Of a stretch of 64,000 nucleotides of DNA, positions 1 to 15,024 are shown piece by piece. The translations under genes and the position numbers were made by a program. The DNA lies in assembly GCA_028287785.1 (NCBI GenBank), contig JAQBOZ010000006.1, forward strand, positions 1 to 64,000, in the 5' to 3' direction. The first letter of the stretch is position 1. Each line of letters starts with the position of its first letter. The stretch is from Chlorobiota bacterium (GTDB lineage Bacteria > Bacteroidota > Ignavibacteria > OLB7). The notes below the pieces were generated by a model. The model made no database searches and was not told the origin of the DNA. It saw only the letters and a list, made by a program, of their open reading frames with translations.

Positions 1-287
1 GCTTGGGCGAGGGTGATGACGGCTGGCATCATGGAGGGCATCCGGCATCTGCCTTGCCAGCCCCATCGGGGCGTACCGGTTGTAGGAATGCCATGTCTTG
101 TACGCTCGCAAGCTCCATCGGAGCCGACGATCCCCGCACCATGAAGGATGGTCCGCTCCGATGGAGCTTGAGCGGGAAAGGGGCCATTGTTGCGACAACC
201 GGCGTGCTCCTACGGAGCTTGAAGAGGGATGAAGGGATCGATCATCGTTCAGCGGACCGGAAGCCTGATTCACCATGCGTCACTACC
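1..287 (-). mobile_element. Dispersed MITE-like repeat, copy A (left end outside window)
   Basis: This stretch matches the reverse complement of the element at 13803-14112 along its whole visible length. It carries the same CCCCATCGGGGCGTACCGG module, the AGCTCCATCGGAGC hairpin arms, and a terminus ending CACTACC at 281-287. It has no protein-like reading frame. The terminus is degenerate (GCGTCACTACC instead of GAGTCACTACC), so this copy looks older than the others. Its other end lies before the window. Confidence 0.75.
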
Positions 288-345
288 TGAAATGGCCCCG
301 ACGAGTAACGCACTCCATCAGGAATTCCGCACCATACGGCCGGCA

Positions 346-1587
346 TCATCCCATCCCTGCATCCTTCCGCAGCACGTAGAGCGGCGCCTCCGGCGGGCAG
401 CCGAGACGGAACGGAAACCAATGGCCGACGCCGGATGAGGTATAGAGCTGCGAGCCTCCCTTCCGATAATGTCCCCAGAGATAGTTCTTCGGCATCCACG
501 GCTCCAGCACACTCCTGCCGTTGAAGCCGACCTGCGCGCCATGCGTGTGCCCGGCCACCGTAAACGGAATCTTCTCCTCCGCCGCAATATCAAGCCCCTC
601 GGGACGATGACTCATCAGCAGATGAAAGGCATCCGACGGAGCGCCGTCGAACGCGGCCCGCACCGAACGCTGGAGAAACGCGTGGTTCCGCTCGCGCTGC
701 CCCATCATCACGGGATCATCCGCCCCTCCGATATAGAGCGCGCCGCCACCGATCGCGATGGAGGTGCCGGAACTGCGGAGCAACGGGATCGGGCCGGCAT
801 CGATGATCCTGACGATCTGCTGGATGCCGCGGAAATATTCGTGGTTGCCGAGCGAGGCGAACGTGCCGTACTTCGTCTTCAGCCCGGCGATCAGCCTGAG
901 CGCGTCCGGCAGCATCGCCACATCGTCGGAGATATCGCCGGAAACCAGCACCAGATCCGGTCGGGTCGATTGCGCCGATTCCATGATCTTCTCAAGATCG
1001 TCCAGATCGACATAGTTGCCGATATGGATATCGGAGAGATGAAGAATCCGCAGGCCGTCAAGATCGTGATGAAGATCGGGAAAGCGCATCTCCAGCTCCG
1101 GCATTCTGACCGCGCCGTGCGAGCTGATAAGGCCGAACCCGGCGGATGCGAACGTTACGACCGGAATGGTGGCGGCCGCGCCGGTGACGAACGAGCGGCG
1201 TCCGTGATCCGGCGCCGGATCGATGACAACGGGGCCGACCGTCACCTGATTGTTCCTCCGCTTCGCGATGATCCATCGGACCAGCCGTTCGATCGTAAGC
1301 ACGGCCCCGCTGAACGGAAGCGATACCGCCAGCGCGAGCGTAAGCGTCAGCACGACCGCCGATATCCCGGAGCCGATGGAGATCAGCCATCCAAGTCGCG
1401 CGGCGCTTCCCAGCGCCCAGAGAACCACCACCACGCCGCCGGCCAGCGGCGTCATCCAGAGCGCGCGGCGCACGCGAGGAATCGCCCACCACTGTCTGTT
1501 GAGCGTGACCAGCCAGATTGCAATCAGCAGCCAGAGCGCGGCCAGCGCCACGATGGTGAAGATCTGCGGAAAGAAGCTCGTAAGCAT
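346..1587 (-). CDS. Membrane-anchored metallophosphoesterase (YkuE/YaeI-like)
   Basis: The 413-residue protein belongs to the calcineurin-like metallophosphoesterases. The first ~110 residues hold about three hydrophobic segments (near 8-28, 45-65 and 68-95). A twin-arginine-like RRSFVTGAA followed by a hydrophobic stretch (130-150) lies just before the catalytic domain. The metal ligands are present: DIH at 186-188, GD at 217-218, GNHE at 247-250, SHR near 326 and GHTHG at 346-350. The domain therefore probably acts outside the cytoplasmic membrane on a phosphodiester or phospholipid substrate, as proposed for YkuE/YaeI relatives. The substrate cannot be read from the sequence. The start is the ATG at 1585-1587. 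Upstream is a gene-poor region of 550 bases, and no operon partner is visible. Confidence 0.88.
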   Translation of the reverse strand: MLTSFFPQIFTIVALAALWLLIAIWLVTLNRQWWAIPRVRRALWMTPLAGGVVVVLWALGSAARLGWLISIGSGISAVVLTLTLALAVSLPFSGAVLTIERLVRWIIAKRRNNQVTVGPVVIDPAPDHGRRSFVTGAAATIPVVTFASAGFGLISSHGAVRMPELEMRFPDLHHDLDGLRILHLSDIHIGNYVDLDDLEKIMESAQSTRPDLVLVSGDISDDVAMLPDALRLIAGLKTKYGTFASLGNHEYFRGIQQIVRIIDAGPIPLLRSSGTSIAIGGGALYIGGADDPVMMGQRERNHAFLQRSVRAAFDGAPSDAFHLLMSHRPEGLDIAAEEKIPFTVAGHTHGAQVGFNGRSVLEPWMPKNYLWGHYRKGGSQLYTSSGVGHWFPFRLGCPPEAPLYVLRKDAGMG

Positions 1588-2140
1588 AGAAGCGTATACC
1601 TGATGACGACTGCGCGGGAGGAACCTCGACGTGCAGATGAGATGCCCGTTCCGCGCTGAACTTCGAGGAATATCGGGCGGACGGCAACGGGCGCCGGACG
1701 AGCTTCGGCCCAGGCCCTATCAGCTCGATCGGTTCCCCGCTTCCATGGAGAACGCTGGGAGAGAGGGGAGATTGTCCCGCCAGACGTATCAGTATTTATT
1801 CACCATCGGCGAATCGGTCGCGCGGCGACCCTGTAGGCATCCCGGAATACGTGACCGATTCCCGTACACCGATACCGCCCCGGTGGATGGATGGACGGGC
1901 ATCGAGGCTGGTTTCGGAAGTTCGTTACAACACGATATGGTGTCGAAAAGGCTTGATTTTCGCGAAAATCGGCGTGGTCGCCCTCCTGGGGTCCCCCAGT
2001 CACCCCCCATCCGCCGCGGAGCAAATCCGGTGGCACATTCCTTGGACTACCCTTTAAACAGAGAGAGAAACTGGACCCTCTCTCACGAGGCAGGCTGGAC
2101 ACCTGCTTCGGATCTTCAACTCTTCAGATAGGACCCTGAC
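1588..2140. other. Intergenic region with no recognised gene
   Basis: This gap lies between divergently transcribed genes and so must hold both promoters. I see no convincing coding frame. It contains a perfect 16-base palindrome, GATTTTCGCGAAAATC, at 1955-1970, and a GAGAGAG/CTCTCTC pair near 2062-2090 that could form a leader hairpin in the transcript of the next gene. Neither can be assigned to a known regulator. Confidence 0.4.
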
Positions 2141-2437
2141 ATGCGGTATACTTCGATCCTCGCCTTCCTCCTCGTAGTGCTCTTCGGAGCGGCTTCTGCA
2201 CTGGACCTCAGAGCCGCAACCGCCAGCGATAACAAGCCGGTGGTGGAGAAGGTGGTTCGTAAAATCGAGAAGAGTGCCCCCGCGAATCGGGTGGAGTCGC
2301 CGGTTGCCCCGGTCAACTTCCCGAACGCGCCATTGACCGCGGATACGCTGAACATGCAGACCAATCATCTCCCAAGCCAGACGACCATGGTCGTCAGCGA
2401 CGACGACGCGGCAGGGATGATGTCGATCGATAAGTAA
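2141..2437 (+). CDS. Small exported protein of unknown function
   Basis: The 98-residue product starts with a typical Sec signal peptide (about residues 1-25, hydrophobic core ILAFLLVVLFGAASA). The mature part is short, polar and apparently unstructured. I recognise no family. A strong intrinsic terminator follows at 2503-2541, which supports a real monocistronic transcript rather than a chance frame. It is probably a periplasmic or secreted small protein; no catalytic or binding motif is visible. Confidence 0.6.
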   Translation: MRYTSILAFLLVVLFGAASALDLRAATASDNKPVVEKVVRKIEKSAPANRVESPVAPVNFPNAPLTADTLNMQTNHLPSQTTMVVSDDDAAGMMSIDK

Positions 2438-2502
2438 TGATGATCATAAGCGGTTGGTGGAGCAGACGACCTGCGTAACGCAACAACGTTCCGTAACGCG
2501 AG

Positions 2503-2541
2503 AGAGTCCGACGATAGGGGTATCGTCGGACTCTTTTTTTT
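2503..2541 (+). terminator. Intrinsic terminator after the small exported protein gene
   Basis: A perfect 14-base-pair stem (AGAGTCCGACGATA with TATCGTCGGACTCT, loop GGGG) runs directly into a run of T residues on the + strand. Confidence 0.92.
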
Positions 2542-2581
2542 GCCGGTCATCCCGGCCACCGGAAGGGCGTAACCCGCGCCG

Positions 2582-4099
2582 TCAATTCACCAGACGCCAG
2601 CCCGCTCCGTTGAAGACGAACATTCTGCTCTGACCGGGGTTGATGATCGTCCCCGGAGGAATGCCGCCGGCATTGGCGTTATCGTCGTTCGAGATGATCA
2701 GCAACTGTCCCGGCGTCCCGGCGGCGGGAAGATTGATCAGGATCGGGACGTTGGCGTTATCGTCGGTGATCCGGAGCACGGAGACGCTGGCGGGCACATT
2801 GATGGTTGCCGCGGCAGGCACCTGAAGGAGCGAAAGAGCGGTCGATCCCGACGAGACCAGAAGCCCCGCCCCGCCGCCGCCGGCGATTTCCAGCGCCGCG
2901 CCGGGGGTTGCGGTCCGTATGCCGACCGTGCCGTCATCCCGCACCGTGAAGAGCGGGATGTTCGCGCTATTGGAAACGTCGAGCGCCGAGCTGGCGGCGG
3001 TTGTGCCGTTTCCCTTCACCGAAAGCCGCGAACCCGGCACCGGCGTGCCGATCCCCGAATTCCCGGTGGTGATCACCGAAGCCACATTGAGCGTCGTGGT
3101 GGCGCTGATGTCGATGCCGCCGATCGTCCCGTTGGCGATCTTCACCGATGTCACCGCGTCGTCGGCCAGCTTCGCGGTGGCAACGGAGCCATCGGCGAGC
3201 TTGACGGAGGTGACGGAGCCATCGGCAAGTTTGATGGAGGTAACGGCGTTATCGGCCAGCTTCGTGGTGGTAACGGCGTTGTCCTTGATGGTCGGGTTGG
3301 GATAGGTTCCCGTCAGGTCGCCGCCGGCCGTGCCGGTCGCCGTAAACGAAACCCCGGCCGCGATCTTCCCCTGCGTGATGGCGCCATCGCGGATCTTCGC
3401 GGTGGTCACCGATGTATCGGCGAGCTTCGCGGTGGTGACGGAGCCGGCAGCCAGCTTGGCGGTGCTGATCGCGCCGTCGGCCACATCGAGGCCCGCCACC
3501 GGCCCGCTGCCGTTCGTGATCGCCAGCGTGCCGCCGCTGCTCTGCACTCCCTGAATGCCGGTTCCCCCCGCGCCGCCGGTGGAAGAGATGGTGATCGTGT
3601 TGCCGTTCTTGTTGACAGTGGTGGCGCCGCCCCCCTGAATCGTGATCGCCCCGTCAAGGCTGTTGATGCTTGTGACCACCCCGGTGGCGCCGGGCGCCAG
3701 CGACTTCGCCTGATCCGCAATGATCGCACGGAACGCATACGGAACCGCCGTCAGCAGCGTCCGCGGCGACAGCTCCTGCCCCGCCGCGCCGAGCGTGATC
3801 CCGAGATAGTACGGCTTGTCGAAGCTGATCGCCGAGGGAATCGGCGTTACCGACCCGATGATGATGTCGAAAATCCCCTGCCTGAACTGAACCGACGCAT
3901 GAGCTTCGGTATAGATCGGGGTTCCCGTGGGGCTCTCGGAAAGCGAAATGGTCACGGCCATCGTGCCGTTCACTGCATTCCCGCTCCCGTCGCGAACCTC
4001 CCCCTGATAGCTTATCGTCCGCGGCACCTGCGCCACCGCCCCCGACGTAATGGCGACCGACGCAAACAACAGGAGCGTGGCAAGGCGTTGCAATGTCAT
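2582..4099 (-). CDS. Secreted protein with KLAD-type decapeptide repeats
   Basis: The 505-residue protein has a signal peptide (residues 1-23, cleaved after GAVA). An N-terminal beta-rich domain (about 25-125) begins YQGEVRDGSG and resembles Bacteroidota surface modules that open with a folded domain. The middle (about 205-330) is a run of ten-residue units of the form GSVTTAKLAD. It is interrupted by one glycine-rich spacer, and later units read DAVTSVKIAN. Such repeats occur in tail-fibre-like and trimeric fibre proteins and suggest an elongated, possibly trimeric, stalk. The C-terminal ~150 residues are Gly/Ala/Thr rich and end in GAGWRLVN. No T9SS sorting domain is seen. A strong Shine-Dalgarno (AAGGGGGAACC) precedes the ATG at 4097-4099. 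Function is unknown; a surface structural role is inferred. Confidence 0.75.
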   Translation of the reverse strand: MTLQRLATLLLFASVAITSGAVAQVPRTISYQGEVRDGSGNAVNGTMAVTISLSESPTGTPIYTEAHASVQFRQGIFDIIIGSVTPIPSAISFDKPYYLGITLGAAGQELSPRTLLTAVPYAFRAIIADQAKSLAPGATGVVTSINSLDGAITIQGGGATTVNKNGNTITISSTGGAGGTGIQGVQSSGGTLAITNGSGPVAGLDVADGAISTAKLAAGSVTTAKLADTSVTTAKIRDGAITQGKIAAGVSFTATGTAGGDLTGTYPNPTIKDNAVTTTKLADNAVTSIKLADGSVTSVKLADGSVATAKLADDAVTSVKIANGTIGGIDISATTTLNVASVITTGNSGIGTPVPGSRLSVKGNGTTAASSALDVSNSANIPLFTVRDDGTVGIRTATPGAALEIAGGGGAGLLVSSGSTALSLLQVPAAATINVPASVSVLRITDDNANVPILINLPAAGTPGQLLIISNDDNANAGGIPPGTIINPGQSRMFVFNGAGWRLVN

Positions 4100-4395
4100 G
4101 GGTTCCCCCTTCTCGATTGAAAGATGTTAGCTGGCTGAGCGAGATGCGATCCTCGGCGTCCGGTCCTTACATCCCGGCGGGGGTGGGTGACACCGCTCCC
4201 GGATGGGACCGGCATTTCAGCAGATGGAACAGTCAATACGCCGAAGCCGACAAGGCTGTAACGTCATAACGTAATCAACTTCCAAGTTGTTATCAACAGC
4301 GATCATGGAACGAAGCCCTCTCACGCCTGAAACGGAGAGGGCTTTACGGAATATCAGCCCCATAAAGGCCGGCTATCGGCGGCAACGCGCGCGAT

Positions 4396-4575
4396 CGTAG
4401 TGACTCAGTTCAACTCCAGCCTCCGGTTGGCAGCGCAATGATCCATCGATGATCCTCTCATCACTCTTCAAGCTCCGTCAGGAGCGTGCCGGTTGCAGCA
4501 ACGATGGGGCTGGGAAGACGGATACCGTATATGACTCCGGGCATCATCCACGGCATCTCAACCTGAGTCACTACC
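4396..4575 (+). mobile_element. Dispersed MITE-like repeat, copy B (internally shortened)
   Basis: The ends are the same inverted pair as copy C: GTAGTGACTCAG at 4397-4408 and CTGAGTCACTACC closing at 4575. The interior keeps the CACTCTTCAAGCTCCGT module and the GATGGGGCTGG module. It lacks the two central AGCTCC hairpin modules, so it is about 180 bases against about 310 for copy C. The flanking octamers CGCGCGAT (4388-4395) and AGTGCGAT (4576-4583) agree at 6 of 8 positions, which is consistent with a decayed target duplication. Confidence 0.8.
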
Positions 4576-4864
4576 AGTGCGATACATAAACAAGGAAAGG
4601 CCGGAAGATCATCTCCCGGCCCTTTATCCTGATGTAGTGGTGTTTCAAGGGACGGCCCGCCGTCCCTCTCCCTGCTGTGACACCCGGCTCCGCGCTGCGC
4701 GGCCACATCGGGAACGCCCCGCTCCCGGATTGTTCGAAACAATGAACGCTGGAATCAACGATCGGTTCCAGCCGTTCGCACACCCGCATGGAGCTTTTTC
4801 ATCGGCGCGCTTCCGTTCAGGATGCCGCGGGCCGGTATGAAGAGCTCATCGCAAGCCCTCACGA

Positions 4865-4920
4865 GTTTCAGAAGGCCGGAGTCTGAACGAAGGGTGCGCC
4901 GGACTCCGACCTTCTGAAAC
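4865..4920. repeat. Long inverted repeat (19 bp arms)
   Basis: GTTTCAGAAGGCCGGAGTC at 4865-4883 pairs with GACTCCGACCTTCTGAAAC at 4902-4920 with one mismatch, enclosing an 18-base loop. There is no T run on either side, so it does not look like a simple intrinsic terminator. Confidence 0.7.
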
Positions 4921-5328
4921 ATTGGCGCCACGTGAGCCGCGAGTTGAACACTCCAAGGCTCCAACGCAACGCCATTCCCCCTGTCGTCGTGGATAAAATT
5001 TTCTATGCTGGATAAATACTTCGCGCCCGGATTGGGCATCGCGCGGGGCAGGTCGCAAGGGATGAAAAAAGATCGTGGCAAACGTACAATCGGGTAGTCT
5101 CGAAATCGTGCTCAAATTGACAACCAGCCAGGGCAATCCACGACTGATAATCGGCGGTATCTGCCGTGTTTCACCGATTTCAGGCCACATCGCAATTTTT
5201 TTTTCGACGATTTCAATGTGAGCCGAATCGGATGGATGGTGGCATGAACAATGACAGGGCGATGGCGCTCCCGCCGCTGTATGCGGGGACGGAGGCGCGA
5301 TAAGCGCAAGGAATATCGGCCGACCGGC

Positions 5329-6660
5329 CTATCTCCTCTTGAGCGTCATCCGGATGCCGTATTTCGGTCGCATGGTGATCGACGGAAACGGGACGATGGA
5401 TTGATCCGGGACCAGCGAGAGATGAAACCGCTGGACGATGGACGCCAGAAGCAGCGTCGCCTCCATCATCGCAAAGCCATCGCCGATGCAGCGCCGGGCG
5501 CCACCACCGAACGGAAAGTAGGCGAACCTGGGGAGCCGCCGCGCCAGATCATCATCCCAGCGCTCCGGCCGGAATGCCTCGGGGTCGTCGAAGAACCGGG
5601 GATCGCGCTGGATCACCCACTGGCTCATGATAAGCTGCGCGCCGGCGCCGATATGATATCCGCCGATCTCGCAATCGACCGCGGCCTCGCGCCCCACCCG
5701 CCACGCCGGCGGAAAGAGCCGCATCGACTCCCGCACCACTCTGTCGGTATACTGAAGCGTCGCCATATCATCCATCCGCGGCTCGCGCCCCTTCAGCACC
5801 TCCTCGAGCTCCTCCACCAGCCGCGCCTCGGCGCCGGGATTCAGTGAGAGGAGATAGAGCGTCCATGAAAGGGCGATGGCGGTGGTCTCGTGCCCGGCCA
5901 GAAAGAGCGTGATCGCCTCGTCGCGGAGCTGGAGATCGGTCATGCGGCTCCCATCCTCATCCTGCGCGCCCAGAAGCAGCGAGAGGAGATCGCCCGAACC
6001 GTCGCCGTTCTCCCTCCGCTCGGCGATGATGCCGTAGATGATCTCATCCAGCCTGCCGATCGCCCGCTTGAACCGGCGGTTGCGCGGCAGCGGAAGCGCA
6101 TCGAGCAGGCGCATAAACCCCATCCGCTCGATAAAACGCTGAAGCGCCACCTCCAGCGCCGCACCGAAATCCTCGGCGTGCTGCACCACATCGGCGCCGA
6201 ACAGCGTCTTGGCGACGATGCCGAGCGTCAGGCGCATCATCTCCTCGTGGATATCCATCGTCTCGCCATCGTGCCAGCCGGCAAGCATCTCCCGCGTCAG
6301 ATCCACCATCGTAACGCCGTACGACGCAATCCGGTCGCGATGAAACGCCGGCTGCATCAGGCGTCGCTGGCGGAGCCAGAAATCCCCCTCGCTCGTCAGC
6401 AGCCCGTTCCCCAGCACCGCACCGGCCTCCCTGAGCAGCCGGGGCTTGATAAAGTTCCGGTTCGATGTTACCAGCACCTCCTCCACCAGATCGGGATGGC
6501 TGAGGAGATAGGCGTCGATATTGGCGACCCTGAGATGAACGAAATCGCCGTGGAGACGGGCGCACTCGGTCATGAATTCGAGCGGCTGATTCCGCATGCG
6601 CGGAAGATGTCCCAGAAGGAAATGTCCTTTCGGCGCGGGAGGGGCTGTCATCGTATTCAT
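5329..6660 (-). CDS. Cytochrome P450
   Basis: From the ATG at 6658-6660 this encodes 443 residues, a typical soluble bacterial P450 length. An upstream in-frame ATG (6870) would add 70 atypical residues. Family signatures are all present: WLRQRR in helix C (95-100), the oxygen-activation motif AGHETT in helix I (255-260), ExxR of helix K (ESMR, 311-314) and the heme loop FPFGGGARRCIG with the cysteine thiolate ligand at 391. The protein should be a heme monooxygenase on a hydrophobic substrate. The nearest types I can suggest are CYP102/CYP110-like fatty-acid hydroxylases, but this is only inference. No ferredoxin or reductase gene is adjacent, so electrons must come from elsewhere. The gene is divergent from the DedA gene across a 267-base gap. 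Confidence 0.93.
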   Translation of the reverse strand: MNTMTAPPAPKGHFLLGHLPRMRNQPLEFMTECARLHGDFVHLRVANIDAYLLSHPDLVEEVLVTSNRNFIKPRLLREAGAVLGNGLLTSEGDFWLRQRRLMQPAFHRDRIASYGVTMVDLTREMLAGWHDGETMDIHEEMMRLTLGIVAKTLFGADVVQHAEDFGAALEVALQRFIERMGFMRLLDALPLPRNRRFKRAIGRLDEIIYGIIAERRENGDGSGDLLSLLLGAQDEDGSRMTDLQLRDEAITLFLAGHETTAIALSWTLYLLSLNPGAEARLVEELEEVLKGREPRMDDMATLQYTDRVVRESMRLFPPAWRVGREAAVDCEIGGYHIGAGAQLIMSQWVIQRDPRFFDDPEAFRPERWDDDLARRLPRFAYFPFGGGARRCIGDGFAMMEATLLLASIVQRFHLSLVPDQSIVPFPSITMRPKYGIRMTLKRR

Positions 6661-6927
6661 CGGGAGAGGATTGTCTGTTGCACGATCGAGCGAAAACCGG
6701 AACATGCGGACATCGATGCGATCGCAATTGCGGATCACGCCCCGCTTCGTATGTTCCGGTCCTGAATATATCCACGCCCGCTTCAGCGGGCAACAGGACG
6801 TGACCGCGCCGGGACAGAGGGGAATGTTCACGGGACCGGAGCCCGCCGGCGCGACTTCACTGACTTCCATCCCCGACCATTTCCAGCGAAACAGCCCGGC
6901 CTATTTTTTCAGAATTCCATAGCGCTC

Positions 6928-7587
6928 ATGCATGCAGTTATTTATTGGATCACGCAGTGGGGATATCCTGCGATATTCACCCTGCTCGTGATGGGCGTGG
7001 TGGGAGTTCCGGTGCCCGATGAAACGCTGCTGGCGTTTGTCGGATATCTGGCATATAAGGGAAACCTCGATTTACTGCCGGCGATTGCCACGGCATTTTT
7101 CGGGAGCATCTGCGGCATCACCATCAGCTATATTCTCGGCAAAACGCTCGGGCTGAAAATCCTCCTTAAATATGGAAAATATGTCCATATCACGCCGGAT
7201 AAACTCGACAAGACGCACCAGTGGTTCGAGCGGTTCGGAAAATGGCTGCTGATGATAGGATATTTTATTCCTGGGGTGCGGCATCTTACGGCATATGTTG
7301 CCGGAACGTCGGACATGGAGCTTCCCCATTTCATGGTCTTCGCCTACACGGGCGGCTTTATCTGGTCGCTGGGATTTATCATGCTGGGATATCTCCTTGG
7401 CGATAAATGGGAAATGGTGATGCGATCGGCGCACCGCCATATTCGAATTGCATCGATGATCGCGGCGGGACTGCTGATGGTGTATCTTCTCTGGAGATAT
7501 CTGAAACGGAAACCGGCGGCCGTGGAACCACCGCAGGAAATCGTGGAAATACCAACAATCACCGATGGCGCCGATGGTTCGGAATGA
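6928..7587 (+). CDS. DedA family membrane protein
   Basis: The 219-residue protein has the DedA/SNARE-associated fold: an N-terminal amphipathic start, GVPVPDE at about 26-32, and several transmembrane segments. The loop GYFIPGVRHLTAYVAGTSDM carries the conserved Arg and Gly of the family. A final hydrophobic helix (about 176-194) precedes a Pro/Glu-rich cytoplasmic tail. DedA proteins are implicated in flipping undecaprenyl phosphate or other lipids and in membrane-potential homeostasis; the exact substrate here is unknown. The gene stands alone on the + strand. Its start follows an AT-rich stretch (6900-6925). Confidence 0.9.
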   Translation: MHAVIYWITQWGYPAIFTLLVMGVVGVPVPDETLLAFVGYLAYKGNLDLLPAIATAFFGSICGITISYILGKTLGLKILLKYGKYVHITPDKLDKTHQWFERFGKWLLMIGYFIPGVRHLTAYVAGTSDMELPHFMVFAYTGGFIWSLGFIMLGYLLGDKWEMVMRSAHRHIRIASMIAAGLLMVYLLWRYLKRKPAAVEPPQEIVEIPTITDGADGSE

Positions 7588-7674
7588 TATTCGGTGAATA
7601 TTCAGGACGATATTTTCGCGATGAAAAACATCGTCGTCACGAATATCGCATTCGATGCGATGGATCGAACCATG

Positions 7675-9678
7675 TTATTCCTCCACCACCACGCTGACGC
7701 TGGCGGCCAGAAGCCGATCCTCGGGATAATTCACCGGGCCTGATGCATCAGCTCTGGATGTGATGCTCACGGTACGGGATTTCAGCATCCCGCGGAGCAT
7801 GGTCACAATCTGCTCGCCACGCACCCCCCCGCTACGATCGCCGGCGGGGGCAATCACGGTAAGCCGCGCGGGCCCCTCCACGGAGGTCGCGATGCGCCTG
7901 AGTGCCTGGCTGGTGGCGGCCCCGTCGCTTTTCGCGGCCCCGCCGATCAGCATGTAGGTGGAGCGGCTGGAGATGCCGCCGCGCACCGGAGCGGCGGCGG
8001 CCGACGGAAGAAGCAGCGGCAGCGAATCCCGCGCCGACGTGGTGGCGCCGGTCGAATCGATGACGGTGAGATCGGCGACAATCGGCGGCAGCATGGTATC
8101 GGAAAGATCATCGGGGATACGAAAGGCAAGCTCGGGATTGCGCGTCGTGTCGGAATATCGCCCTATCTCGCTGGCCCCCTGGCTCAGCACGATTCTCCAC
8201 TCCCGCACGCCATGTCTGGCAGTGATCTCCGGCTGAAGGTCCAGCACCGGCTGGCGAAACCGTCGGGATTTCCATTCGATCCGGAGCGGCCCGGCGATAT
8301 CCCCGGATGGCCTGATCCTGACGCAGCGGTCAAGGTCGCCGCCGGCCGCCATCGGTCGCGCAACGGAGAGCGCGATGCGCGCCGGCTCGATCCCCCACGA
8401 TTCCTCCAGATATCGCCGCACCCGTTCGGAACGCGCCACCGCCAGCGAAGCATCTTCATCCCCCGCCGCCGATCCCGCCAGCGTGACCCTGGAAGCCGCG
8501 TGCTCCCGCATGCGGAGGCCGATGATATCGAGCCCGCGCCGGTAGATATCGGCCGGCTCCATCGCGGCAAGCGATGCGTACGAGAATCCACCGGCCCGCG
8601 CATCGCCATGAACGAACCGCGCCGGCAGCTCCGCCGACGCGCGATCGAAGAAGATCAGATCGGGAAGAGGCATCTGCCGGATCTGGGAGATGGTATCGGC
8701 GTGGAGGATCGATTCCTGATGATGCGCCCCCTTCTCATCGACCGCGTAGAGATCGATCGAGGCGCTGAGCGCGTTCCCCTGGTCGGTGTCGACGGCCACG
8801 GGTTTCGGTGGCTCGGTCGCTGGCGGCTCCGCCGGCACAACCGCGGGGGCCACGGGGGGGCTCAGATCAAACATCAGGGCAACGCTCACGCCCGCGCTGA
8901 GCCATTGCGGAAAGGATGTGAAGCCGGTCGGGCTCAGATCCCCGCGCACCACCACCGCCCCGACAAGCGACGTGGTCCGGTCAAGCCCGTAGGTATAGGA
9001 TGGCGCCAGCACAAACCCCCAGTGGGAGGAATAAGGCTGTATGTTGCTCCCATCGATCGTGGTTTCGAAACCGAATTCGCTGACGCCGGGCCTGGGAATC
9101 GCATCGGAATACGTGTACCGGGTGAAGATCGGATACCCCACCCAGAGCCCTCCCCCCAGACCGAACGGCCCGATCGCGTTGTAATGAGCCATCACATCGA
9201 GCTGCGCGGAGAGGGTGGAGGATCGAACGGAGAATTCGTAGCTGTTGACCGCGACAGGGTTGATAGCGGGTTGACCGGTGATACGATCGGATTGCAGGCG
9301 ACCCGAACCGATGCCGATTGAAAGCTCCACCATTCCACCGAACGGGCTCCCCGACGAGAATTCCGGAAGCGCCATGGTGGTTCCGAACCGGAGGAAATCG
9401 GAAGCGCCCCTCATTCTGTCGTTATCGCAATTGCACCAGCCTGCCGCGTTCCACGTCCGGTCGATCTCCAGCGGCCGCCCGGCCTCGAAACCGACCATGG
9501 GGCCAACCACCACATGCTGCGCGCGGATGCCGGCCGGGGCCAGCATAAGGGCGATAAGGAGTGCAATGGCGGGCGCGCCACGGCGTCGTATGCGAATCGA
9601 CAGGTTCAACGCAATCCGTTCGTAAGAATTGTTCCACCGGAAGCCTGAAACGGGGCCGGCTGTTCGTGAAGAGGGCAT
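7675..9678 (-). CDS. OmpA family outer-membrane protein with N-terminal barrel-like domain
   Basis: The 667-residue product has a signal peptide (hydrophobic core about 35-50, ending GIRAQ). A ~230-residue beta-rich domain resembles an outer-membrane barrel. A proline-rich linker (PAEPPATEPPKP) follows. Next comes an OmpA-like peptidoglycan-binding domain with the pattern VTLAGSAAGDEDASLAVARS...VRRYLEESWGIEPARI. An Ig-like segment and a second, weaker OmpA-like unit (TVIAPAGD...GEQIVTMLRG) complete the protein. This layout occurs in Chlorobi/Kapabacteria-type OmpA proteins that tie the outer membrane to peptidoglycan. The first ~25 residues before the signal region look extraneous, so translation may begin further in; the ATG at 9676-9678 is kept for lack of a better candidate. 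Confidence 0.82.
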   Translation of the reverse strand: MPSSRTAGPVSGFRWNNSYERIALNLSIRIRRRGAPAIALLIALMLAPAGIRAQHVVVGPMVGFEAGRPLEIDRTWNAAGWCNCDNDRMRGASDFLRFGTTMALPEFSSGSPFGGMVELSIGIGSGRLQSDRITGQPAINPVAVNSYEFSVRSSTLSAQLDVMAHYNAIGPFGLGGGLWVGYPIFTRYTYSDAIPRPGVSEFGFETTIDGSNIQPYSSHWGFVLAPSYTYGLDRTTSLVGAVVVRGDLSPTGFTSFPQWLSAGVSVALMFDLSPPVAPAVVPAEPPATEPPKPVAVDTDQGNALSASIDLYAVDEKGAHHQESILHADTISQIRQMPLPDLIFFDRASAELPARFVHGDARAGGFSYASLAAMEPADIYRRGLDIIGLRMREHAASRVTLAGSAAGDEDASLAVARSERVRRYLEESWGIEPARIALSVARPMAAGGDLDRCVRIRPSGDIAGPLRIEWKSRRFRQPVLDLQPEITARHGVREWRIVLSQGASEIGRYSDTTRNPELAFRIPDDLSDTMLPPIVADLTVIDSTGATTSARDSLPLLLPSAAAAPVRGGISSRSTYMLIGGAAKSDGAATSQALRRIATSVEGPARLTVIAPAGDRSGGVRGEQIVTMLRGMLKSRTVSITSRADASGPVNYPEDRLLAASVSVVVEE

Positions 9679-9864
9679 AAACTACCACCGGACCGGGGTC
9701 GAGACAACGACGCGCCCCCCCAAATTTCGTCACGGAGATATCGCCGGGATCAACATATAAGGCCACTGTGAGCAAACGAGCGAAAAAAAGTTTATGATTG
9801 CTGTCACGTTTCCCCCGGAGAGCCGGTCACTTCAGGTGAACAGCTTCCGGAGTATCGATATTAT

Positions 9865-10542
9865 ATGAGTCAACTACTTGTGGCACTGTCCTCACCGATC
9901 GATTCGGAGCGCGAGAACGATCTTGCGCGGCCGAAGAGCCCGAATGACGACACGATTCTGCTGGATAGATTCTTCGCGGGGGAGAATTCCGCGCTCGTTG
10001 AGTTGTACGACAGGCACAACCATCGCCTGTATATCTATTGCCTGAAGCTGCTCGGCTCCCCGGAACAGGCGGAGGATCTGACCCAGGAAGTGTGGGAGCG
10101 CATCGCCCGTCTCCGCTCGAAGCCGCAGACGATTCATAATCCTGTCGGCTTTCTCCTGACGATCGCCCGCAACCTCTGCTTCAATCATCTGAAGTCGCGG
10201 AAGCGGTTCTCCCCCATCGACGAGGTGGACGAAGTGGAGGCCCGGATGGCCTCCACACAGACATCACGCGAGTTGAGCGATCTTGAGGAGCTGGTGGTGG
10301 CGGCGCTGGCGGAGATCCCCCCCGATTATCGCGAGGTGCTGGTGTTGAACCTGTATTGCGGATATCGCCTGGAGGAGATCGCGACGATGCTCGGAAAATC
10401 GGCCGATGCCATACGGAAACGGGCATCGCGCGCACGAATGCAATTGAGAACGATTGTGATGGAAAGGATTCAGACACAGGAAGGAACTGAAATGATGGCG
10501 ATCGCCGCGACCGCATTCGGCATCGAGGAGGAGAAACGATGA
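9865..10542 (+). CDS. ECF-type RNA polymerase sigma factor
   Basis: The 225-residue sigma-70 family protein has region 2 at about 30-100 (LVELYDRHNHRLYIYCLKLL, then EDLTQEVWERI, the -10 recognition helix). Region 4 lies at about 140-200 (LAEIPPDYREVLVLNLYCGY, then LEEIATMLGKSADAIRKRAS, the helix-turn-helix). No region 1 or region 3 is present, as expected for extracytoplasmic-function sigmas. Its stop overlaps the start of the next gene in an ATGA, so sigma and anti-sigma are translationally coupled. The 185-base gap upstream is divergent from the OmpA-like gene, which could be a target. Confidence 0.93.
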   Translation: MSQLLVALSSPIDSERENDLARPKSPNDDTILLDRFFAGENSALVELYDRHNHRLYIYCLKLLGSPEQAEDLTQEVWERIARLRSKPQTIHNPVGFLLTIARNLCFNHLKSRKRFSPIDEVDEVEARMASTQTSRELSDLEELVVAALAEIPPDYREVLVLNLYCGYRLEEIATMLGKSADAIRKRASRARMQLRTIVMERIQTQEGTEMMAIAATAFGIEEEKR

Positions 10543-11333
10543 CCGATTTCGATAGAAATACCATGATCGAACGCTACATGGCCGGCAGGATGGAAGCCTC
10601 CGAAAAGAAGACATTCCTGCGCCGGGTGGAGCAGGATGAGGGGTTGCGCCGGGCGCTCTACGCGGAAACGCTGATAAGCCGGGCCATCCGCTCCGATCGC
10701 TCCGCCGTCCCCAGCCAGCCAGCCGACTCCCGCGCGCGCTTTCTGACGATGCTTGCGGTGGTGGCGCCGGAGACGGCAATCCCCACGACGGGAACCGGCG
10801 GTGGAACGTCGGCGGCGGGAAAGCTCGCGGGGATGGGAAAGTTCATCGGCGGCAGCGGCGCGGCAAAGGTGATCATCGCCGCGGTGATAGGCATCACGGC
10901 CACCGTTGGCATGATCCTCATCGTTCCAACGCTCTCCCACACGACAAGCACGCAGGCCGTATCCGTTACGGCTCCCGCGGTACGGCAGACGCAGACGGCA
11001 CCCGCGGCGGAAACCGGGGAGAAGACGAGCGCTCCGGCACCCGCCGGAAATCAGTCGCCGTCGGCGCTTCCGGTCGAGGTACAGTCGCCACGGGCGGATG
11101 CGACGAGAGAACCATCAGCGGAATCCGGCCGGGTTGTGACGAACGCCGAGGGGAGAAAATCCTCGCCGGAGACGCGCTCCCCGATCACCAGCCAGACACG
11201 TGCGAAGGAGCGGATGAACGCATCCGAGACGGCCAGCGCCAGCAGGTCGAAGAAGGATAATGTGCCGATGCTTGGTGAGTCGACGGAGGTGCCGATTCAC
11301 TCACATCCGGCAACCATCAGGAACGGGAAATAG
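10539..11333 (+). CDS. Probable membrane anti-sigma factor
   Basis: The 264-residue protein overlaps the sigma gene by four bases. The N-terminal ~45 residues (MIERYMAGRMEASEKKTFLR...) resemble the short cytoplasmic sigma-binding segment of anti-sigma factors. A glycine-rich stretch leads to one transmembrane helix (about 109-127, VIIAAVIGITATVGMILIV). The rest is an Ala/Thr/Ser/Pro-rich, low-complexity periplasmic tail of ~130 residues. There is no clear HxxxCxxC zinc motif. The assignment rests on position, coupling and topology, not on a strong family match. Such a protein would hold the sigma factor at the membrane until an envelope signal releases it. Confidence 0.75.
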   Translation: MTDFDRNTMIERYMAGRMEASEKKTFLRRVEQDEGLRRALYAETLISRAIRSDRSAVPSQPADSRARFLTMLAVVAPETAIPTTGTGGGTSAAGKLAGMGKFIGGSGAAKVIIAAVIGITATVGMILIVPTLSHTTSTQAVSVTAPAVRQTQTAPAAETGEKTSAPAPAGNQSPSALPVEVQSPRADATREPSAESGRVVTNAEGRKSSPETRSPITSQTRAKERMNASETASASRSKKDNVPMLGESTEVPIHSHPATIRNGK

Positions 11334-11476
11334 CGAACCGCCTCGGAGCACTCACTATCGGTCGCGCGATGGCTTCAATGTCATCCGCGACCGTGCCTGT
11401 TTATGGCGGGTCATTACCGGCACCATCCCCATCCTCATTGCTTTCCCCCGCCCCGGAAGTATATTTCGTCACTGTT

Positions 11477-12154
11477 ATGAGAATTCTACTCGTTGAAGAT
11501 GATCAGGGCATCGCCGAGGTAATCCGGCGCGAGCTTGCCAGCCAGCATTACTCGATCGATATCGCGTACGATGGCGAGGAGGGAGAGGATCTGGCGCTGA
11601 GCAGCGATTACGATATCATCCTTCTGGACCTGATGCTTCCAAAGAAGGACGGCCGCGATGTCTGCCGCGCGCTTCGGAAGGAGGGAATCACCACGCCGAT
11701 CCTGATGATGACGGCGCTGGGGGAGGCCGAGGATATGATTCAGGGGCTGGACGTGGGCGCCGATGATTATCTGGTGAAGCCGTTTCATATCGGCGTGCTG
11801 CTGGCGCGCATCAGATCGCTGAGCAGGCGGCAATCGGACCAGAAGAGCACCGAGATGACGATCGCGGATCTGGTGCTGAACACGGCCAAGCGGACGGTGA
11901 CCAGAAGCGGCGTGCCGATCACGCTGACCGCCAAGGAGTTCGCGCTGCTGGAGTACTTCATGCTGCGCCGGGGAAAAGTGGTCACGCGCGATATGATCAG
12001 CGAGCATGTCTGGGATATGAACTTCGATCCCCGCTCGAACGTCGTCGATTCGCTGGTCCGATTCCTCCGGCAGCGGGTGGACAAGGGCTTCGAGCCGCAG
12101 CTTATTCATACGGTTCGCGGGGTGGGCTATCTCTTCTCCGACGAGGAGACCTGA
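11477..12154 (+). CDS. OmpR/PhoB-type response regulator
   Basis: Translation from the ATG at 11477 gives 225 residues. The upstream in-frame extension to 11369 has no receiver character and is left out. The receiver domain has acidic residues in VEDD (7-9), the phosphoacceptor D51 (LLDLMLP), T79 (MMTALG) and K101 (LVKPF). The C-terminal winged helix (about 128-222) shows LTAKEFALLEYFM and the final RGVGYLF typical of OmpR-family DNA-binding domains. It pairs with the histidine kinase that begins 63 bases downstream. Confidence 0.95.
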   Translation: MRILLVEDDQGIAEVIRRELASQHYSIDIAYDGEEGEDLALSSDYDIILLDLMLPKKDGRDVCRALRKEGITTPILMMTALGEAEDMIQGLDVGADDYLVKPFHIGVLLARIRSLSRRQSDQKSTEMTIADLVLNTAKRTVTRSGVPITLTAKEFALLEYFMLRRGKVVTRDMISEHVWDMNFDPRSNVVDSLVRFLRQRVDKGFEPQLIHTVRGVGYLFSDEET

Positions 12155-12217
12155 GGCGGCCTCCGGTCCACGCGCCGGCCCGGCCGGGTTTCCGGCTCCC
12201 TTACTCTCGCACTCCGC

Positions 12218-13621
12218 ATGTTTACGATCACAACCCGGCTCACCCTCCGCTATCTTCTGATCTTCGGCACGATCGTCAGCGCCATCGTGGTGGTGATGTA
12301 CACCGTCTTTGAATCGAACGAGCGGGATTCCTTCGATGCCGAGCTTCGGGACTACGCCGAATTCCTCGTCTCCGGCGTGAACACCTCCACCGGCAGCGTT
12401 TCCGACATGTTCGATAATCTTCAGGACGTGACCGGCCAGGCGAACCTCCGGTTCCGGTCGAAATGGTTTCTGCTGATGACCCGCGACAGCGTTGTCTATG
12501 AGAGCGGGCAGCAGGATTCGATCGAGGATATGGTCGATTCGCTCCAGACGATGCTCCCCAACCGGGGCCGCCCGAAATTCCGGACGATCCAGGCCAACGG
12601 CATCACCTATCGCGCGTTTGCCCTTTCGATTCCCAACACCCAGAAACTGCGGCTCGGCATCGTCGTGGTCGGCTCGCTGGACCGGCTGGAGGCAACGCTT
12701 GAGCGGCTCCGGAACATCCTTCTGATCATCGTCCCCGCCTCGCTGCTGCTGGCCGGCGTGGGAGGCTGGTTTACCGCGCGGCGGGCGCTGGCCCCGGTGG
12801 CGGAGATAACATCGGCGGCGGCGGCGATCTCCTCCAGCAATCTCCATCAACGGGTCAGCGGCGGGAACTCCACCGATGAGCTGGCGCAGCTTGCCAGCAC
12901 ATTCAACGCGATGATCGAGCGGCTGGAGCTGACGTTCAACAGCCAGCGCCGTTTCGTGGCCGATGCCTCGCATGATCTCCGCACGCCCCTCATGGTGATC
13001 CAGGCCAAGCTGGACCATATCCTCACCCTGCCGGAAATCGACCCGCCGGTGCGGGAGGATCTTGAGCACTGCCTGACCGAAGTGGACAGGATGAGCCGGC
13101 TGGCAAACGATCTTCTCCTGCTCGCCAAGGCCGACGCCCACCAGCTCCGGCTGATCAAGGCGCCCGAACGGCTGGATGAGATCGTGGTGGACTGCGTCAG
13201 CAAGCTGAAGAACCTGGCCGGGCAGCGAAACATCTCCCTCTGGGTCGATGTGGATGACGCCGTGGAATTCTCCTGCGATTCCGCGACGCTGCAACGCGCC
13301 ATCATGAACGTGATCACCAACGCCATCACCTACTCGCACGAATCCTCGACGGTCACCACGCGCCTTACCGCCCAGGACCGCGCCGCGCTTATCACCATCT
13401 CCGACAACGGCCCCGGCATTCCGGCGTCCGATATCCCGCAGATCTTCGACCGCTTCTACAGAAGCGACACGGCCCGGAGCACTCCCGGATCGGGGCTTGG
13501 GCTGGCAATCGCCAGGACGATCATCGAGGCGCACGACGGCACCATCGCGATAGCATCGGAGGAGGGGAAGGGGACGATAGTGACGATCGGCCTGCCGGCT
13601 GAAATAATGATGGATGCATAG
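12218..13621 (+). CDS. Two-component sensor histidine kinase
   Basis: The 467-residue membrane kinase has a first transmembrane helix at about 10-31, a periplasmic sensor of ~135 residues and a second helix at about 167-187. A HAMP linker (about 188-240) precedes the HisKA box DASHDLRTPL with the phospho-accepting H252. The HATPase domain has an N box (NVITNAITYSHES), a G1 box (DNGPGIP), an F box (FDRFYRSD) and a G2 box (GSGLGLAIA). The periplasmic sensor has no recognised ligand-binding family. The layout is like the CusS/heavy-metal sensor and other OmpR-linked kinases, but the signal is unknown. With the preceding regulator it forms a two-gene operon directly after the sigma/anti-sigma pair. 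Confidence 0.95.
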   Translation: MFTITTRLTLRYLLIFGTIVSAIVVVMYTVFESNERDSFDAELRDYAEFLVSGVNTSTGSVSDMFDNLQDVTGQANLRFRSKWFLLMTRDSVVYESGQQDSIEDMVDSLQTMLPNRGRPKFRTIQANGITYRAFALSIPNTQKLRLGIVVVGSLDRLEATLERLRNILLIIVPASLLLAGVGGWFTARRALAPVAEITSAAAAISSSNLHQRVSGGNSTDELAQLASTFNAMIERLELTFNSQRRFVADASHDLRTPLMVIQAKLDHILTLPEIDPPVREDLEHCLTEVDRMSRLANDLLLLAKADAHQLRLIKAPERLDEIVVDCVSKLKNLAGQRNISLWVDVDDAVEFSCDSATLQRAIMNVITNAITYSHESSTVTTRLTAQDRAALITISDNGPGIPASDIPQIFDRFYRSDTARSTPGSGLGLAIARTIIEAHDGTIAIASEEGKGTIVTIGLPAEIMMDA

Positions 13622-13794
13622 CAGGGCGCTGCATTGCTTGCGGCGCCCGGACCCTTCAACAATGATCGAATGCAAAGCGACCATATCGGCGTGCATGAGA
13701 TATGCTCCCGACGGTAAAGGCCAACATCGCCGGCGATGTCGTGTCATGGGGTGATTATCCCGAACTCATCTCCGTGCACCGTGACAACCGACCC

Positions 13795-14120
13795 CGACCG
13801 ATGGTAGTGACTCAGTTTGAATCCAGTCTTCCATCTGCTAAACAATCATCGATCGGCGATCCCTCCTTCACTCTTCAAGCTCCGTGGGAGCGCACCGGTT
13901 GTAGCAACAATGCTCCCATCTTCTCGCTCAAGCTCCATCGGAGCGTACCATCCCCGCATCCGTGCCAAATGGTACGCTCCGGTGGAGCTTCAGATCATCG
14001 AAGACGTGGCATCGCTACAACCGGTACGCCCCGATGGGGCTGGAAGGAGAGATGCCGAATGCTCTCGATGAGCCCGAACAGCATGAGCCGTATCCCAACC
14101 TGAGTCACTACCCGACCGAT
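13795..14120 (+). mobile_element. Dispersed MITE-like repeat, copy C, with 8 bp target duplication
   Basis: The element body is 13803-14112. Its ends are inverted repeats: GGTAGTGACTCAGTTTG at the left and, read on the other strand, GGTAGTGACTCAGGTTG at the right (one mismatch in 17). The octamer CGACCGAT occurs on both sides (13795-13802 and 14113-14120), the signature of a transposition target duplication. Inside are palindromic modules such as AGCTCCATCGGAGCGTACC and its inverse, and CGCCCCGATGGGGCTGG. No open frame resembles a transposase, so it would have to move by a transposase in trans. Confidence 0.85.
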
Positions 14121-14436
14121 TGGCAATTTCGCGAACAATTCGCCGCGACACCCATCACAACCCGGCAGGCCCGACGTTTTACGGCACACCACCCATCAAA
14201 TTTTATTATTAAAATCCCCGTACAATATATCCGGAAAAAGCCTCGATTCCGGCCTTCCGCGTCATTTGGCCATAAGGGCCAATTGCCTTGCAACGCGGGC
14301 CGGGCAATGAATTCATGATTTTTTTATTCTATCATCAATTCATCATTTTCCCCCGATAAATTTGTATTCGTTATTCGATGTGGGCGCTGCTCCAATGATA
14401 TTTCAAACCCCTTATTCATAGAAGGACAACAGAATC
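14121..14436. other. AT-rich upstream region of the first Asr-like gene
   Basis: No coding frame is supported. The G+C content falls sharply between about 14200 and 14420, with runs such as TTTTTTTATTC and a TTGTATTCG near 14362. This stretch presumably holds the promoter of the gene at 14437. An AAGGA Shine-Dalgarno lies about 10 bases before its ATG. Confidence 0.5.
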
Positions 14437-14658
14437 ATGACTGCAAAGAATATCCTCTCGGCCGCGCTCGTGGCTGCTCTCTCGCTCGGCACGGTTGCTT
14501 TCGCACAGAACAAGCCGGCCAAGCCCGCCAAGACGACCGTCCAGGCCGCCCCGAAGGAAGATGGCGCCATGACCCCGAAGAAGAAGATCGCCCGCAAGCG
14601 TCACGCTGTCAGGAAGCACAAGGCTCAGACCGCGGCGACCGCCCCCGCCAGCAAGTAA
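14437..14658 (+). CDS. Small exported lysine-rich protein (acid-shock/Asr-like)
   Basis: The 73-residue product has a clean signal peptide (residues 1-23, cleavage after AFA). The mature part of about 50 residues is rich in Lys, Ala, Pro and Thr (KPAKPAKTT, PKKKIARKRHAVRKHK). This composition resembles the Asr acid-shock proteins of enterobacteria, where basic Ala/Lys/His-rich mature peptides act in the periplasm; the similarity is one of style, not proven homology. AAGGA upstream of the ATG and a perfect terminator at 14669-14706 support expression as a single gene. The next small gene (15025) has the same plan. Confidence 0.75.
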   Translation: MTAKNILSAALVAALSLGTVAFAQNKPAKPAKTTVQAAPKEDGAMTPKKKIARKRHAVRKHKAQTAATAPASK

Positions 14659-14668
14659 TATCCCGCAT

Positions 14669-14706
14669 GAAGGGCGGATCGTGAACCGATCCGCCCTTCG
14701 TTTTCA
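14669..14706 (+). terminator. Intrinsic terminator of the first Asr-like gene
   Basis: A 13-base-pair stem, GAAGGGCGGATCG with CGATCCGCCCTTC, is followed by GTTTTC on the + strand. Confidence 0.88.
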
Positions 14707-15024
14707 ACAGACTGTTGAACAACCTCATCCGCGGCGGCGGCAATCACATTCGGCCGCCCTGCATCTGATGGTTGTTGAACAGCCCGTTGACAGAATGGGC
14801 CGCTGGCCCGGCAACGGAGGCCCTCCCAGGGGATACCGTTACCCACTCTTCAGCAGCGAAATAGTTCCTTGAATCAGCGAACGAGAAATTTATTGTCCGG
14901 TGATCGGTAAGAGATTTTATCATCTCCCCATCATGTTCGGGCTCTAAGTTTGCATTCATCGGTTGCGCATCTATCAGCAACCGCTACCGTTTTCCAACAA
15001 CAATTATAACTCAGGATTCCGACC
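14707..15024. other. Intergenic region between the two Asr-like genes
   Basis: No gene is supported. A near-palindromic pair, CTGTTGAACAACC (14712-14724) and GGTTGTTGAACAG (14770-14782), flanks a GC-rich core. The last ~150 bases are AT-rich and presumably hold the promoter of the gene at 15025. Confidence 0.45.

Follow-up and report, generated by a model that had tools for sequence, protein, structure and literature searches.

Ends of an apparently orphaned MITE family in an Ignavibacteria genome link it to passenger-carrying IS1-type transposons

The locus analysed here is a 310-bp repeat in a 64,000-nucleotide stretch of Chlorobiota DNA (the window), and the question it raises is whether such a sequence is a transposon or a structural repeat and, if a transposon, which enzyme moved it. 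The initial annotation, made from the letters alone, described three copies of a MITE-like element within 14 kb, and its boundaries were found to hold (Table 1): copy C ends in GGTAGTGACTCAGTTTG and CAACCTGAGTCACTACC, inverted to one another with one mismatch, and carries the same octamer on both sides; copy B lacks the central part, starts its left end with a C for G and is flanked by octamers agreeing at 6 of 8 positions; and copy A lies in the opposite orientation with a more diverged end, GGTAGTGACGCATGGTG. The second end of copy A and its duplication fall outside the data because the window starts at base 1 of its contig (C37). Copy C is intergenic, downstream of the open reading frame at 12218-13621.

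Table 1. Coordinates of the MITE copies in the window and of the parts of copy C
Feature	Position	Strand	Basis
Left target duplication octamer, CGACCGAT	13795-13802		sequence
Left terminal inverted repeat, GGTAGTGACTCAGTTTG	13803-13819	+	sequence, genome-wide end matches
Copy C, full-length 310-bp MITE	13803-14112	+	end-to-end single-hairpin fold
Left inner module, CAAGCTCCGTGGGAGCGCACCGGTTGTAGC, pairing with 14014-14043	13876-13905	+	sequence, fold
Central hairpin, AAGCTCCATCGGAGCGTACC...GGTACGCTCCGGTGGAGCTT	13930-13990		sequence, fold
Right inner module, GCTACAACCGGTACGCCCCGATGGGGCTGG	14014-14043	-	sequence, fold
Right terminal inverted repeat, one mismatch to left	14096-14112	-	sequence
Right target duplication octamer, CGACCGAT	14113-14120		sequence
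Copy B, 180-bp internally deleted MITE, flanks CGCGCGAT/AGTGCGAT	4396-4575	+	
Copy A, diverged MITE truncated at contig start, sole end present at 271-287	1-287	-	

The three copies belong to a genome-wide family. A search of the 4.75-Mb genome with the 17-base ends, as the initial annotation had proposed, gave 170 matches at up to two mismatches versus 0 for a reversed-pattern control, and the copy number of the MITE in this genome of the class Ignavibacteria is ~65-90. The loci that were fetched contain 129 ends (66 left and 63 right) and, with 51 paired copies in the flank analysis, represent most, not all, of the family. BLAST with copy C returned copies at 96% identity and lower. Copies are mostly 139-331 bp long, with one compound copy of 482 bp; they fall into at least two subfamilies, one of about 304 bp and one of about 310 bp, besides several deletion variants, and the ends are common to all. 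The copies are non-coding, stay below ~600 bp and cannot encode a transposase, and they combine 17-bp terminal inverted repeats with a target duplication of fixed length (8 bp) and many dispersed insertions, all of which are features by which MITEs are recognized. Bacterial MITEs such as MITEAba12 are likewise short, non-coding and multicopy, with terminal inverted repeats and a target duplication (PMC6382973). What sets the present element apart is its interior, in which palindromic modules form a mirror pair. The ends and driver of MITEAba12 are presumably different as well. Rfam gave no match in positions 1-15000 of the window, and a literature search with the raw end and module sequences returned no relevant paper.

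Evidence that these repeats have transposed comes from their flanks. Over the 51 paired copies, flank identity is 75% (mean 0.748) when the lag is exactly 8 bp and only 0.24-0.28 at the other lags scanned from 5 to 12, and the octamers agree at 7-8 of 8 positions in 29 of them (17 perfect, 12 with one difference), a level of 7/8 being reached by 0.15% of mismatched flank pairings. At C2:305614-306235, a 310-bp copy is nested within an older copy, and once the inner copy and one octamer are excised, an uninterrupted element of 304 bp remains whose alignment runs over the junction without a gap, a base-exact empty site. Orthologues of the genes flanking copy C in G001, a genome of the same genus, are separated by a much shorter spacer without the element; this spacer is too diverged for base-exact comparison, and what it offers is synteny without the element only. 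The weak point that the initial annotation had seen in its own reading, namely that duplications might be missing from other copies, does not apply, in that other copies carry them and the nested insertion restores the older copy. On the grounds of the ends, the exact 8-bp flank agreement and the base-exact empty site the repeat is a MITE, and we regard it as confirmed that it is a real, once-mobile miniature transposon.

The fold of the element invites a different account, in which it is a non-mobile, conserved structural repeat of the REP-like hairpin kind whose ends merely flank palindromes. Copy C folds end to end into one hairpin (-154 kcal/mol, z = -13.9), its interior consists of AAGCTCC-N3-GGAGCG modules (307 genome-wide matches with at most one mismatch) that form a mirror-image pair around the central hairpin, and at least one two-sided change is found in 8 of 63 hairpin pairs, which points weakly to maintained pairing. 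Similar modules without the MITE ends are found in two other genomes, G002 and G049, where they have other surroundings, and the modules are therefore not specific to this MITE; this also supports, inside the class, the earlier suggestion that they resemble widespread repeats. The inner modules share with REP/BIME-type repeats a short, GC-rich palindromic form, dispersal over the genome and presence in relatives, but differ from them in lying within transposon ends. The two-sided changes are few, however, and exchange between the arms could be their source, while the 8-bp duplications, the nested insertion with its exact empty site and the deletion variants with the same ends leave this account with hardly any probability; the duplications and the empty site refute it as a full explanation. 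The interior of this once-mobile MITE does not resemble a transposon reduced by deletion, its palindromic modules being similar to others in the class. Modules with other surroundings were recorded at L338, L343, L347 and L350 (G049) and at L342, L346 and L349 (G002), those in G049 lying in mirror-image palindromic units that end in TTTGTAGAA and a second hairpin.

Copies devoid of a duplication were first suspected to stem from recombination. Many contigs begin or finish within a MITE copy, and 12 copy ends that have no partner on their own contig have an 8/8 octamer partner on another (for example the C11 end with C34:18458, CAACCAGC, and the C5 end with C34:18151, CGGGCTCC), the chance expectation for such matches being roughly estimated at ~0.01. 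These 12 pairings likely mark true neighbours. Since the partners sit at contig ends, misjoins at the repeat best explain several internal copies without duplication, and more simply than recombination would, and absent duplications are partly an assembly effect. Sites of break or misjoin in this genome are contig ends and C34:18151-18458, C6:48153-48461, C26:6057-6365 and C11:81996-82305. With an assembly that breaks and misjoins at the MITE, the 8-bp duplications are usable for re-pairing contigs.

The initial annotation had also advised looking for a transposase gene with matching ends, and an IS1-type transposon family with near-identical ends exists in other genomes. Searching 391 genomes of the class for GGTAGTGNCTCAGTTTG yielded inward-facing end pairs about 1-5 kb apart, and four of the five longest enclose a transposase of ~275 codons, three of these with perfect 8-bp duplications (the 8/8 agreement in 3 of 5 pairs is independent of any duplication-based choice). 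A transposase-based scan of named genomes gave 80 loci in Bacteroidota, Pseudomonadota, Acidobacteriota, Nitrospirota, Chloroflexota and others, 56 of them with an end pair and duplication and the rest mostly unresolved, several being truncated by a contig end. Named-scan loci and relatives were compiled into a set of 66 elements of 1.9-5.3 kb, of which 62 have perfect 8-bp duplications, a fraction biased upward because pairs were partly picked by their duplication. The 132 autonomous ends give the consensus GGTAGTG[TG][CG]TCA[GC]TTTGAA and follow the GGnnnTG pattern, with GG at the start of 131 and TG at positions 6-7 of all, and the target duplications of these elements fall within the 8-10 bp of IS1. 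The MITE consensus equals that of the autonomous ends save for an A at position 8, a base found there in 0 of the 132.

The transposase of these elements scores above the curated cut-off of PF03400 in four of four cases and matches it at E below 0.001 in 27 of 30 members, and it reaches 62-70 bits against the 100-bit cut-off of the NCBIfam IS1 equivalog NF033558. Homologues in public plasmids are annotated 'IS1 family transposase', and the predicted structure has an RNase-H-like DDE fold with a low-confidence insertion; a PDB sequence search with the transposase profile returned no match. The enzyme is encoded by a single ORF of about 275 codons in which the InsA/InsB frameshift arrangement is absent, and single-ORF members are a known subgroup of IS1. 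About 63 residues separate the inferred second D (TTDG) and E (VERQN), versus about 24 in classical IS1. By its NF033558 score the transposase clade is IS1-related, not classical IS1. With single-ORF IS1 the system shares GGnnnTG ends, an 8-bp duplication and the PF03400 domain; it differs in that the MITE is geneless and its autonomous relatives are 2-5 kb in size with passenger genes.

We consider it very probable, from this agreement in sequence, that the MITE is non-autonomous and that its ends are substrates of an IS1-type DDE transposase supplied in trans. Such an enzyme would act on both GGTAGTG... ends (17-19 bp), and insertion into staggered breaks would leave the 8-bp duplications; the duplications are observed, and the chemistry would be that of known DDE transposases. 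As near-identical ends bound autonomous transposons elsewhere, the MITE most likely lives as a parasite on that passenger-carrying IS1-type family.

Two other drivers were weighed. IS1595-family and Merlin elements also make 8-bp duplications, Merlin ends start with GG (PMC8101967), some members carry passenger genes, and the genome of the window has three intact IS1595-type (PF12762) genes. Even within several kb of these genes, however, there are no MITE-type ends, none of 14 loci scanned in relatives gave a convincing end pair, and the MITE ends agree with those of the IS1-type elements at every conserved position, which makes an IS1595-type driver very improbable. The transposase tied to MITE-type ends is of another type, and with no DDE_Tnp_IS1595 transposase between these ends the candidate was rejected. 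The three genes (L147, L148 and L149) have no recognisable ends, and the gene that follows the one in L148 presumably encodes an RloB-type protein. The other possible driver is a transposase not yet sampled, from a different family that obeys the GGnnnTG end rule, for instance an IS6-like one: GGnnnTG ends and 8-bp duplications are common to IS1 and IS6 families (PMC6807381), IS240/IS6 DDE models match the transposase weakly, and the A at position 8 of the MITE end is unexplained by IS1-type ends. The 17-19 bp that the MITE and the IS1-type elements share go beyond mere GGnnnTG, however, and we hold such a driver to be very unlikely.

The proposed IS1-type driver itself has left little trace in this genome. 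The window is without a transposase, as had been noted, and a genome-wide search produced only a relic on another contig, 63 residues of an IS1-type transposase with two stops (G000:C35:28159-28347, locus L221), which adjoins what looks like an IS3-type insertion. The 95%-complete assembly contains no intact IS1-type transposase, and the exact driver was not found, since none of the 132 autonomous ends has the position-8 A of the MITE. With only the relic remaining, the MITE family looks orphaned in this genome; its driver would have decayed or be unassembled, so that the family is probably immobile here now. The active history first proposed for the element thus stands for the past, not for the present, the assembly being without an intact IS1-type transposase. 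An intact relative of 4,621 bp is present in G001 (L361:6282-10902), with an 8/8 duplication, an RmrA-like passenger and ends, GGTACTGGGTCAATTTG, that have four differences to the MITE end; G001 also has MITEs of its own, 266-271 bp in length, whose ends are related and whose interior differs. Through its ends, the orphan MITE of the window is connected with a family of transposases.

The MITE belongs to a known kind, the IS1-type MITE, and of greater interest is a by-product of the analysis, the passenger-carrying transposon family. Between one and six passenger ORFs are present in each of the 2-5 kb IS1-type transposons (L203, L205-L207, L225-L301 and L361); often these encode an HTH protein together with an M78 peptidase, of the RmrA or PD-Lambda-2 type, or are other genes of toxin-antitoxin-like or defence-like character. 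Of the 119 passenger ORFs, 16 matched PF06114 (M78 peptidase) and 15 matched HTH_3, these being raw counts with no background control, and PADLOC, also with no background control, assigned up to 15 to RmrA models and 13 to PD-Lambda-2_B. The linked transposons suggest that IS1-type enzymes carry defence and toxin-antitoxin genes between phyla. We tentatively entertain, while thinking it rather doubtful as a whole, that the ends mark a broad, perhaps undescribed IS1-type lineage which exchanges toxin-antitoxin and defence modules across phyla and spawns palindrome-filled MITEs that outlast their transposase and become a major source of genome breakpoints. Two further loci have ends like those of the IS1-type transposons. 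One, a cassette from G040 (L208:524-1576), spans 1,053 bp between ends of the same kind with a 7/8 duplication and contains a 238-codon ORF and mere fragments of the transposase gene; the other, from G099 (L204:466-5699), holds 5.2 kb between two such ends, without transposase or duplication, and includes a BrnT-type toxin gene.
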